From positions 1 through 49,022 of the forward strand of contig CATLDI010000005.1 of the NCBI GenBank assembly GCA_949902805.1: DNA of 49,022 bases, given 5' to 3'. Below the pieces are notes generated by a model, which did not search any database, had not been told where the DNA came from, and saw nothing but the letters and a program-made list of their open reading frames with translations. The DNA is from an uncultured Clostridiaceae bacterium. GTDB taxonomy: Bacteria > Bacillota > Clostridia > TANB77 > CAG-508. Below are positions 14,124-44,506 of the stretch, piece by piece. A program made the translations under genes and the position numbers. Position 1 is the stretch's first letter; the number at the start of each line of letters is the position of its first letter.

Positions 14124-14825
14124 ATGTCATATATAGAATTTAAAAATGTAAATAAAGAATATAAAATGGGAGAAGTAACAATAAAAGCTTTAGACAATAC
14201 AAACTTTAACATAGAAAAAGGAGAACTAGTAGTTATAGTAGGTCCAAGTGGAGCAGGAAAAACTACAACACTAAATATACTAGGAGGAATGGACAATGTA
14301 ACATCAGGCGAAGTAATAGTAGATGGAAAACAAGTAAATAAATTAAATAACAAAGAACTAATAAAATACAGAAGAGAAGACATAGGCTTTATATTCCAAT
14401 TCTATAATTTGGTACAAAACCTAACAGCAGTAGAAAATGTAGAACTAGCAACACAAATATGCAAAGACTCACTAGACCCAGAAACAATAATAGAAAAAGT
14501 AGGATTAAAAGAAAGAAAAAAGAACTTCCCATCACAATTATCAGGAGGAGAGCAACAAAGGGTAGCAATAGCAAGAGCAATAGCAAAAAATCCAAAACTA
14601 CTATTATGTGATGAGCCAACAGGAGCACTAGACTACAAAACAGGAAAACAAATACTAAAACTTTTGCAAGACACATCAAGAAAAGAAAACATGACAGTAA
14701 TAATAATAACCCACAACACAGCACTAGCACCAATGGCCGACAAAGTAATACACTTTAAAAACGGAAGAGCAGAAAAAATAGAGACAAATGAAAATCCAAC
14801 ATCAATAGAAGAAATAGAATGGTAG
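14124..14825 (+). CDS. ABC transporter ATP-binding protein (MacB/LolD type)
   Basis: A 233-residue ATPase. Walker [10 protein letters not shown] (about 41-49), signature [14 protein letters not shown] (about 138), Walker [13 protein letters not shown] and the H-loop ITHN are intact. This type powers mechanotransmission transporters with FtsX-like permeases. The partner permease lies at 15860, but a transposase gene flanked by REP elements intervenes. The TAG stop (14823-14825) shares its last base with REP copy C. Likely exports peptides, lipids or antimicrobials, by family inference only. Confidence 0.93.
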
Positions 14826-14877
14826 CACGGTAGGGACGTTCCTTTCCGTTCCGAAATCGGAACGCTGGGGATACTCC
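14825..14877 (+). repeat. REP element copy C, left of RAYT
   Basis: GCACGGTAGGGACGTTCC, then the core GTTCCGAAATCGGAAC and CGCTGGGGATACTCC. It is more diverged than copies B, D and E, abuts the stop codon of the ABC ATPase, and is inverted relative to copy D on the other side of the transposase gene. Confidence 0.85.
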
Positions 14878-15005
14878 TTAGACTAAATAATGGAGACAAA
14901 TAGTTTATTAAAAGTGAACTATAATAGAGGAAATTATATTTTTAAACTAAAAATATAAATTAATAAAATAGGGGCAAAAAATAATAAAAGAAAGAAGGTA
15001 ATATT

Positions 15006-15782
15006 ATGCCCCGAATGGCAAGAGAAAATTTAGAAAATGGATTTTTCCATATAATGGTTCAAGGAATAAAAAAAGAAAAAATATTCTACAAAGGTGAATA
15101 CAAAGAAAAATATATTAGGTTAATGAAATTCTTTAAAGAAAAGCAAAAAATAGAGCTTATTAATTATTGTGTAATGAATAATCATGTTCATATTATTATA
15201 TATACTGAAGATATAAATGAATTAACAATATTTATGAGAAAATTAAATACAACATATGCTCTACATTATAATAAAGAAGAAAATAGAGTAGGATATGTAT
15301 TTAGAAATCGATTTGAAAGTAAAGAAATATATAATCAAGATTATTTAACAAAATGTATTAAATATGTACATATGAACCCAGTAAAAGCTGGTATTACAAA
15401 AACAGAAGGAGAATATAAATATTCAAGTTATAATGATTATATAAACAAAAAAGGAATTGTAACAGATGAATTATTGCAAAAAATATTTAGCTCAAAATAT
15501 AATTATCTACAGGAATTTTTTAAAATAGAATATGATGAAGAGTTATTTGAAGAATTAGAAAAAGAAGAACTTACAGATGAGAAACTAAAAGAACAAATAA
15601 ATCAATTTATAAAAAAAGAAGAAATAACATTAGAAGAATTGAAAACAGATAAAAGATTAATAAAAAAACTATATAATACTATGAAACTAAAACCAACAAA
15701 AGCAAAATTAGGAGAATGTATAGGGCTAAGCAGAACAAAAATAAGTAAGATATTAAATGATTATAAAGAAAATAGAAAATAA
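15006..15782 (+). CDS. REP-associated tyrosine transposase (RAYT, Y1 family)
   Basis: 258 residues. An IS200-like HUH endonuclease fold: the metal-binding motif is NNHVHII (about 58-64), preceded by YCVM, and the candidate catalytic tyrosine is in KYVHMNPVKAG (about 120). The start PRMARENLENGFFHIMVQG is typical of the family. The C-terminus adds a helix-turn-helix (LGECIGLSRTKISKIL), seen in clostridial RAYTs. RAYTs are thought to mobilise REP palindromes. This gene is bracketed by inverted REP copies C and D, with three more copies elsewhere in the window, so it is the probable source of the family. Confidence 0.92.
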   Translation: MPRMARENLENGFFHIMVQGIKKEKIFYKGEYKEKYIRLMKFFKEKQKIELINYCVMNNHVHIIIYTEDINELTIFMRKLNTTYALHYNKEENRVGYVFRNRFESKEIYNQDYLTKCIKYVHMNPVKAGITKTEGEYKYSSYNDYINKKGIVTDELLQKIFSSKYNYLQEFFKIEYDEELFEELEKEELTDEKLKEQINQFIKKEEITLEELKTDKRLIKKLYNTMKLKPTKAKLGECIGLSRTKISKILNDYKENRK

Positions 15783-15799
15783 AATAAGGAGTAAGCGAA

Positions 15800-15852
15800 G
15801 GAGTGTCCCAAGCGTTCCGAATTCGGAACGAAAAGGACCGTCCCTAGCGTGC
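15800..15852 (-). repeat. REP element copy D, right of RAYT
   Basis: In reverse orientation it reads GCACGCTAGGGACGGTCC, then the core GTTCCGAATTCGGAAC and CGCTTGGGACACTCC. It ends only 7 bases before the start codon of the permease, so the permease ribosome binding site is GGGGA straddling the element edge. Confidence 0.9.
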
Positions 15853-22009: not shown

Positions 22010-22049
22010 ATTGATAAAAAAGTTATGCATATCTAAGAGGAGGATTTTT

Positions 22050-22827
22050 ATGTTTATAGTTTTTAATAAAGAAAAAATAAACTCATACATAATTTTATTA
22101 AGTACAGTAGTCATACTATTTGGAATAGCATTTAGCGTAACTACAAAAGATGCAGTAGAAACAGCGGCAGCCACAAAAGAACTACCAATTTATAATGTAG
22201 CAACAGAGGAAAAGAAGGTTGCTTTTACTATGAACTGTGCATGGGAAGCAGATGATATTGATAGTATATTAGAAACACTTTCTAAACACAATGCAAAAAT
22301 TACATTTTTCATGGTAGGAGATTTCGTAAAAAAATACCCAGATGCTGTAAAGAAAGTGAATGAAGCTGGACATGAAATACGGAAATCATTCAGATGCACA
22401 TCCACATGTAAATAATTTGAGCCTAGAAAAGAATAGAGAACAAATATTAAATTGTAGTGAAAAAATAGAGAACATAACTGGAAAAAAAACAACCCTTTAT
22501 AGAGGTCCATATGGAGAATATAATGATACTGTTATAAATGCAGCGAAATCTCAAAACCATAATACTATACAGTGGAATTTGGATACATTAGACTATTCTG
22601 GTTTAACAGGAGAAGAAATGTGGAAAAGACTAGAAAGTAAATTGGTACCTGGAAGTATTATATTAAGTCATAATGGAACTAAACATACAGCTGATAGCCT
22701 AGATATGTTATTAACTAATATAGAAAATAAAGGTTTCAAAGTAGTAACAGTTTCAGAATTAATTTATAAAGAAAATTATTATATAGATGTGAATGGGACT
22801 CAGAGATTACAAACGGAAAGTAATTGA
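22050..22827 (+). CDS. Polysaccharide deacetylase (PdaB-like), frame broken at CGG
   Basis: Membrane-anchored NodB-family deacetylase. Start ATG at 22050 with AGGAGG; a signal anchor is at residues 12-30. Motifs are AWEADD (first Asp pair), GNHSDAHPH (metal His), RGPYGEY, NLDTLDY and ILSHNG. The zero frame runs into ATA CGG AAA at 22377-22385 and stops at 22413-22415; the conserved GHEI-GNHS continues only if the C at 22380 is skipped, giving GGA AAT CAT. With that +1 step the product is about 258 residues, full length, with no other defect. Either a +1 recoded gene or a recent pseudogene. Confidence 0.8.
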
Positions 22828-22835
22828 TAGAACAA

Positions 22836-23056
22836 GAAAGATTCGTTAGGAAAGATTTGGTGGTTGGGAAAGATTTGGTGGTTGGGAAAGATTTGGGACG
22901 AGGGAAAGATTTGGGACGCGTCTAAAAGTTTCCAAACATAGATAACTAGAAAATATTAAAAGTTATTTAATGTTTGGAAACTTTTAGACGCGTCCCAAAT
23001 CTTTCCCTCGTCCCAAATCTTTCCCAACCACCAAATCTCTCCTAACGAATCTTTCC
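22836..23056. repeat. Giant inverted repeat with internal tandem units
   Basis: The left arm (22836-22939) and right arm (22970-23056) pair almost perfectly. The only differences are one mismatch and one extra 18-bp unit (GGGAAAGATTTGGTGGTT) in the left arm. The arms contain repeated GGGAAAGATTTGG units, and the apical part is CGCGTCTAAAAGTTTCCAAA. The 30-base loop can itself form a small stem. There is no gene inside. RNA from either strand would form a rod of nearly 90 bp. Confidence 0.9.
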
Positions 23057-24620: not shown

Positions 24621-24714
24621 GATTGGGGACGGTTCGTAATCGGAAACAAGATAGAATAGTTAAATAAGTGAAAAAACAAAAATAATCTGGATAGATTAGG
24701 AACTGTCCCCAATC
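24621..24714. repeat. Inverted repeat of GGGGACGGTTC type
   Basis: GATTGGGGACGGTTCGTAAT (24621-24640) and GATTAGGAACTGTCCCCAAT (24694-24713) are reverse complements with two mismatches over 21 bases. A third copy of the right arm follows the next gene (26170-26197), so the unknown gene at 24750 lies between direct copies. Confidence 0.75.
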
Positions 24715-43148: not shown

Positions 43149-44448
43149 ATGAAAGTAGTAGTAATAGGTCGGAGGGCCTGCTGGGATGATAGCAGCAATA
43201 AAAGCTGCAAAAGAAAATAATGAAGTTACATTAGTAGAAAAAAATAATATGTTAGGGAAAAAATTATTAATAACAGGAAAAGGAAGATGTAATATAACGA
43301 GTTCCTTAGATATGGAGGAGTTTATTAAAAATACTCCTGGAAATGGTAGATTTTTATACAGTAGTTTTGAAAACTTTACTAATAAAGATATAATTCAAAT
43401 GTTAAAAGAAAATGGAGTAAAGGTAAAGGAAGAAAGAGGAAATAGAATATTTCCAGCAAGTGATAAAGCTATTGATGTAAGAGATGCATTAGAGCAAGAA
43501 CTTAGAAAAAACAAAGTAAAAATAAAGTTAAATGTAAAAGTAAATAGAGTAATTGTAGAGGATTTAAAGGTAGTAGGAGTAGAATTAGAAAATAAAGAAA
43601 AAATAAAAGCACAAAAAGTTATACTAGCAACAGGAGGAAAAAGCTACCCAGGGACAGGTTCAACAGGAGATGGTTATAAAATAGCAAAAGAATTAGGACA
43701 TACAATTACTAAAATAAAACCTTCCTTAGTTCCAATTACAGTATCAAATAATAATAGAATAGAAAAAGAAAGTATTAATAAATCTGAATATGGAACATCA
43801 TTGAATTTATGTAAAAGTATGCAAGGCTTAAGTTTAAGGAATGTCGCAATAGAGATAATAGACGATAGCAAAAATAAAAAGATATATGAAGATTTTGGAG
43901 AAATGCTATTTACACATTTTGGAATATCAGGTCCAACAATATTGAGTGCAAGTAGTCATTTATTACGCTATAAAAATATAGAAGAGCTATTAAAAGATGG
44001 TAGAATAATATTAAAAATTGATTTAAAACCTGCACTTTCAGAAGAAAAACTAAAGGCTAGATTTTTAAGAGAATTTGAAGCAAATAAAAATAAAGAAATA
44101 AAAAATAGTTTAAATGAATTACTACCACAAAAGCTAATTATGCCAGTAATAAAATTACTTAGAATAGATGAAAATAAAAAAGTAAATTCTATTACAAAAG
44201 AAGAAAGAATAGAATTAGTAAAATTATTAAAGAATTTTAAAATAACACTATCAGGATTTAGAGGGATAGAAGAAGCAATAATAACAGCAGGAGGAATAGC
44301 AACGAAAGAAATAAATCCTAAAACAATGGAATCTAAACTAATAGAAGGGCTATATTTTGCGGGAGAAGTAATAGATGTAGATGCATACACAGGAGGTTTT
44401 AACCTTCAAATAGCGTATTCTACGGGATATACAGCAGGTATAAATTAA
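43149..44448 (+). CDS. HI0933-type flavoprotein (YhiN), frame broken at CGG
   Basis: An NAD(P)/FAD-dependent oxidoreductase of unknown substrate. The ATG at 43149 has AAAGGAG. The frame reads MKVVVIG, then CGG at 43170-43172; if the C is skipped it continues as GGPAGMIAAIKAAKE, completing the FAD-binding GxGxxG loop, and goes on uninterrupted to 44448. Further marks are LGKKLLITGKGRCNIT, ATGGKSYPGTGSTGDGY, FTHFGISGP and the C-terminal GEVIDVDAYTGGFNLQIAYSTG. Without the +1 step only a protein starting at the ATG 43186 could be made, lacking the dinucleotide-binding loop. About 432 residues in total. Confidence 0.85.
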
Positions 44449-44452
44449 AAAC

Positions 44453-44483
44453 GTCGCAATTAGGGACAGTCCCTAATTGCGAC
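44453..44483. repeat. Perfect palindrome after flavoprotein gene
   Basis: GTCGCAATTAGGGAC, one A, GTCCCTAATTGCGAC: a perfect 15-bp stem with a 1-base loop as written, starting 5 bases after the stop codon and followed by ATTTTATG. It carries the AGGGAC arm of the REP-like family and may act as a terminator. Confidence 0.8.
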
Positions 44484-44506
44484 ATTTTATGTGTATGTTT
44501 TAAAAA

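Follow-up and report, generated by a model that had tools for sequence, protein, structure and literature searches.

A giant hairpin identified as a REPIN of the RAYT/TIRYT type in an uncultured genus of gut Clostridia, with arms and spacer probably reworked by template switching

The giant hairpin at positions 22836-23056 of the window (the whole stretch of 49,022 nucleotides analysed here, contig C5 of G000, a MAG of 1.48 Mb in 85 contigs) is a REPIN belonging to a RAYT/TIRYT system, new as a family and in its lineage, though of an already known kind. This identification follows from its core, which consists of two inverted 31-bp REPs, and from the ends of a RAYT gene in a related genome (G013), which form the same palindrome. 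We consider it probable that this REPIN was spread via ssDNA by a RAYT-type transposase, and that its arms were then homogenised and its spacer flipped by template switching.

Realignment confirmed the near-perfect giant hairpin described in the earlier note as real. The left arm, 104 nt at 22836-22939, forms a stem with the 86 nt at 22970-23055, and against the reverse complement of 22970-23056 it shows one mismatch (GGAA versus GGAG) and one 18-nt gap, caused by an extra 18-nt unit present in the left arm only. An inverted-repeat search recovered 77-nt arms of 97% identity around a 30-nt loop. No other palindrome in the window comes near it in length: its outward-extension score is 69, against 23 for the runner-up and 10-15 in ten dinucleotide-model shuffles, and it folds as ssDNA at -103.8 kcal/mol (shuffles -23.4 +/- 3.6). 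An Rfam search of the entire window matched no family. The unstranded 104-bp REPIN core (22903-23006), a member of a dispersed family, is made up of REP 1 (22903-22933, plus strand; GGAAAGATTTGGGACGCGTCTAAAAGTTTCC), REP 2 (22976-23006, minus strand), which is an inverted copy of the same 31-mer, and a 30-nt spacer, the loop, at 22940-22969. The 31-nt REP that opens each core arm reads GGAAAGATTTGGGACGYGTC then NAAANNTTTCC, and forms an imperfect hairpin by itself. The left outer arm (22836-22902) comprises a GAAAGATTCGTTA tag followed by the tandem units GGAAAGATTTGGTGGTT (22849-22865), GGGAAAGATTTGGTGGTT (22866-22883) and GGGAAAGATTTGGGACGA (22884-22901), while the right outer arm (23007-23056) carries the mirrored units, one 18-nt unit fewer, and a mirrored TAACGAATCTTTC tag. 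The GGGAAAGATTTGG motif occurs on the plus strand at 22866, 22884 and 22902 and on the minus strand at 22995 and 23013; the tandem GGGAAAGATTTGG units of this copy sit outside the REPIN core.

G000 holds at least 21 paired copies of this core, the one in the window among them. The search of the genome for further GGGAAAGATTTGG arrays called for in the earlier note returned 21 occurrences (reversed control 0), and a BLAST-type search with the hairpin recovered dozens of copies of about 104 bp in G000, G010, G013, G016 and G017. The exact 20-mer GGAAAGATTTGGGACRYGTC is present in 10 of the 27 genomes of the genus (67 occurrences in G013, 58 in G010, 40 in G000, 23 in G017 and 19 in G016; control 0); it is absent from all 270 further genomes sampled from the order outside the genus. 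In the aligned family the outer 19 nt of each arm are almost invariant, the inner arm differs among copies yet stays paired, and the spacer is AT-rich. In paired copies the two REPs face each other, and doublets in this configuration are strongly over-represented: neighbouring REPs are oriented '+-' in 56 cases, '-+' in none, and '++' and '--' in one each. The bias persists (34 '+-' versus 0 '-+') when only G010, G013, G016 and G017 are counted, genomes whose sequence was for the most part retrieved by other means than a query shaped like a pair. G010 and G013 also have many single REPs. The copies are dispersed and extragenic: none of the 21 pairs in G000 lies in a gene, and for G000 and G016 together, with singles counted as well as pairs, only 2 of 53 are genic, against a genic background of 79%. 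Across 31 copies, 97.8% of the arm cells are paired with almost no G-U cells, and arm covariation is 0.232 versus 0.068, a level reached in 0 of 500 shuffles, these figures being inflated in that they partly count inherited subfamilies. The scarcity of G-U intermediates, together with two-sided changes far above the shuffles, favours copying at the DNA level over slow RNA-level compensation.

A PF01797 search revealed Y1 transposases in 20 of the 27 genomes of the genus; the exact REP occurs in 10 of these 20 and in none of the 7 without Y1_Tnp (one-sided Fisher p about 0.02, hand-computed). In G013, the relative with the most REP copies, a RAYT locus (L188) has GGAAAGATTTGGGACGCATCCAAATCTTTCC at its upstream end and GGAAAGATTTGGGACACGTCCATTTCTTTCC at its downstream end; read outside-in, these are both the REP palindrome of the hairpin. 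The encoded protein of 253 aa matches Y1_Tnp (PF01797) above its cut-off and the REP-associated tyrosine transposase model NF047646 at 70 bits, below the equivalog cut-off of 80, and possesses NHSH and YIHMNP motifs and a C-terminal HTH (HTH_3, 24.1 bits against a cut-off of 23). A PDB search with the single sequence gave no match; the family profile, which was needed to find one, had the E. coli TnpA_REP structure 4ER8 as its sole match among solved structures, and 4ER8 was also the top fold match of a structure model. Profile, fold and motifs all point to a Y1/HUH fold akin to that of TnpA_REP. At most of the other RAYT loci looked at in the genus, the ends are inverted and self-complementary with a shared GGGACG core but differing stems, and sister RAYTs have ends in common, as expected under enzyme-repeat co-evolution.

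Among the RAYT loci fetched, ends with the exact REP were found in G013 only and in none from G000, whose closest RAYT is 54% identical to that of G013 and has other ends. This gene (contig C42, L179:1513-2262) still has an open reading frame and undamaged terminal repeats, but NQSH in place of the HUH motif and YIHMNS in place of YIHMNP; its product is possibly catalytically dead, to judge from these residues. Given that the cognate RAYT occurs only in G013 and the nearest one in G000 has NQSH, the REPIN copies in G000 may be relics, or may depend on an enzyme that the bin lacks; incompleteness of the G000 MAG (91%) could hide a cognate RAYT. The RAYT (Y1_Tnp/HUH) gene of the window itself (15006-15782, plus strand) belongs to a different RAYT lineage with other terminal repeats, and was rejected as the cognate mobiliser of the hairpin on account of these ends, which are long and composite with repeats near 14825-14879 and 15798-15852. 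Two widely spaced REP pairs were likewise discarded as parental elements: an inverted pair 1.5 kb apart (L102) is bounded by independent REPs, and the ORF inside it is unrelated and has a pilin-like N-terminus, and a pair 555 bp apart (L092) has no transposase inside.

Judged by anatomy, distribution and RAYT association at the sequence level, the hairpin belongs among the REPINs, and the closest parallel is with those of P. fluorescens (Bertels and Rainey 2011, PMC3116915). Both have two inverted conserved REPs spanning about 100 bp end to end, with a variable pairing spacer showing compensatory changes, and both are extragenic, dispersed and tied to a RAYT, with singlets occurring too. However, the REP sequence differs and has no GTAG tetranucleotide, the host belongs to AT-rich Clostridia, the hairpin arms are lengthened by tandem units, and the P. 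fluorescens elements come with excision reads whereas the present one is known from assembled sequence. The repeats do not belong to the GTAG REPs, which have GTAG or GTGG 5' to the hairpin, in that no conserved GTAG was found in the flanks of the aligned copies; nor do they belong to the CGTC REPs, defined by a stem of 8-9 bp with CGTC as an unpaired tag at one of its ends (PMC3733652), as CGTC here lies in the loop of the 31-mer instead of at an end. With TIRtrons/TIRYTs (Di Nocera et al. 2013, PMC3733652; TnpAY1 subclass 2.1, PMC6006769) the system shares a RAYT with an extra C-terminal HTH, flanking inverted repeats with a G-rich GGGAC-type motif, repeat families occurring as dimers, and REP dimers nested in larger palindromes; in contrast to them, its ends are hairpins by self-complementarity and multiply to form a population of REPINs. 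Having a C-terminal HTH, and terminal inverted repeats in place of GTAG REPs, this RAYT is likely to be a member of TnpAY1 subclass 2.1, whose genes had no REP-like sequences nearby in one survey (PMC6006769).

The gene pair surrounding the hairpin is collinear across the genus, and the orthologous site is without the REPIN in five related species (G006, G132, G293, G017 and G013), of which G013 has one degenerate REP-like stretch. In the sister species G016 the same REPIN is present with fewer tandem units: there are two REP-type units on each side, against four on the left and three on the right in G000. Its spacer is, relative to the flanks, the reverse complement of the G000 spacer with 1 substitution. 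Further, the left-flank tag GATTCGTTA is in both arms in G000 and in one arm in G016, the mirrored TAACGAATCTTTC tag being absent from the right arm of the latter. The earlier note had proposed that the palindrome is either young or kept up by homogenisation, and that units are gained or lost through hairpin-linked replication errors. The comparison with G016 displays the arm-to-arm copying called for by homogenisation, and the differing unit numbers and loop orientation support replication errors of this kind well; what that reading missed is the origin of the hairpin in a genus-wide, RAYT-tied REPIN family. We infer RAYT catalysis of the spread, an ssDNA intermediate and template switching as the enzymatic route. 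A non-autonomous inverted REP pair would have spread, probably as ssDNA, by means of a RAYT-type transposase (HUH/Y1) encoded by a gene with the REP palindrome at both ends, as in G013. An ancestor shared by G000 and G016 would have received the pair in the interval that separates the deacetylase from the gene downstream. Later, switching of template from arm to arm during replication would have homogenised and lengthened the arms (the GGGAAAGATTTGG tandem units and mirrored GATTCGTTA tag) and turned the spacer round. Template switching is reported to homogenise the arms of inverted repeats and to invert their spacers (PMC8604942), and it is this described signature, seen in G000 and G016, that points to switching between the arms. 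The published quasipalindromes share arm-to-arm copying and complete spacer inversion between close relatives, but they concern yeast genes with short arms and 2-5-bp spacer changes, whereas the present case is a mobile repeat of a bacterium, with arms some 90-100 nt long and a loop of 30 nt.

For this last step alone, with the REPIN itself unchanged, recombination is a possible if less likely substitute: arms with 70 or more identical bases can recombine, and a reciprocal crossover between them inverts the loop, but a simple crossover neither copies the GATTCGTTA tag between arms nor alters unit number, although gene conversion could. A MITE moved by a conventional double-strand (DDE) transposase, a cut-and-paste element that has terminal inverted repeats and duplicates its target, would also account for short, dispersed copies with inverted-repeat ends and a variable interior. 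We regard this as quite unlikely, because the matching ends surround a Y1/HUH RAYT gene, a search that was not exhaustive of the genome found no DDE elements with REP ends, and no consistent target duplication is apparent in the copy flanks or at the best near-empty site. At that site (L115 versus L020) there is a pre-existing stem-loop and a rearranged junction, and no clean target-site duplication was seen; no clean target-site rule emerged among the copies examined.

The hairpin folds strongly, and the copies are rarely genic, almost never lie between divergent genes, and are in excess between convergent genes (10/26 versus 14% of the intergenic background, p 0.0016), which might suggest a selected RNA or DNA hairpin, a bidirectional terminator or mRNA 3'-end protector, amplified for its usefulness. 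Yet the same intergenic position bias is reported for REPs elsewhere (PMC3733652), a consensus scan gave no terminator-like site, the copies are near-identical in sequence as well as structure and limited to one genus, the orthologous site in other species is without the hairpin, and the near-lack of G-U intermediates indicates DNA-level copying. Selection as the cause of amplification is accordingly very improbable; the hairpin most likely has no dedicated cellular function, with an incidental 3'-end role possible, and nothing seen here speaks for the small-RNA or dsRNA role raised in the earlier note. An assembly artefact of the metagenome bin, which several copies at contig ends in a MAG of 85 contigs might bring to mind, has a negligible chance and is excluded for practical purposes by the independent MAG G016, which carries the same hairpin at the orthologous locus with both flanks collinear; moreover, many copies are fully spanned. 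The earlier note had also hinted at a tie to the upstream NodB-type deacetylase gene (22011-22827). The +1 frameshift of this gene near 22380, due to one extra base (ATA CGG A), is kept in G000, G016, G017, G013, G006, G132, G293 and G295, including species without the hairpin at this site, and absent from G014, G296 and G015; a link to the hairpin, and the hairpin as cause of the shift, were therefore rejected. Substitutions in the aligned part fall mostly at third codon positions in both frames (e.g. 7/5/35 downstream and 4/3/16 upstream) and CGG is the rarest Arg codon (4/416 in window ORFs), a pattern that suggests a conserved, perhaps programmed, frameshift at CGG.

These observations widen the known range of REPINs and RAYTs to an uncultured genus of gut Clostridia and to RAYTs that bear an HTH. 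The record of palindrome dynamics at the G000/G016 locus is unusually clear: the two genomes show, as a natural before and after, how a bacterial palindrome of about 100 nt has its arms homogenised and its loop inverted. The observations also indicate that hairpins of this sort, when met in MAGs, are genuine mobile repeats instead of artefacts, and can cause contig breaks.

In about half of the copies the pairing is carried on into locus-specific flanks (55% score at least 8, versus 8% of mismatched flank pairs), partly through tandem REP units and partly through a dispersed outer palindrome, GGGGCTGTAAAAAAA...TTTTTTTACAGCCCC. In G016 this outer palindrome (L219:480-609, L225:18020-18148, L254:18405-18534, L199:7240-7334, L200:2552-2660 and L231:8813-8902) holds the REPIN of the hairpin, single REPs, and REPIN-like inserts apparently of other RAYT families. 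Such nesting is not unprecedented, as Di Nocera et al. noted REP dimers within larger palindromes (PMC3733652). The mirrored flanks and the one outer palindrome with REPs of several RAYT families prompt the speculation, to which we give rather little credence, that HTH-RAYTs of this genus insert REPs at the centres of existing palindromes, that the nested hairpins extend by template switching, and that repeated loop flips at gene 3' ends might slowly switch the neighbouring transcripts by way of loop orientation. Further GGGGAC/GTCCC inverted repeats, resembling the ends of other RAYT families, lie in the window at 24621-24714 and 44448-44488.
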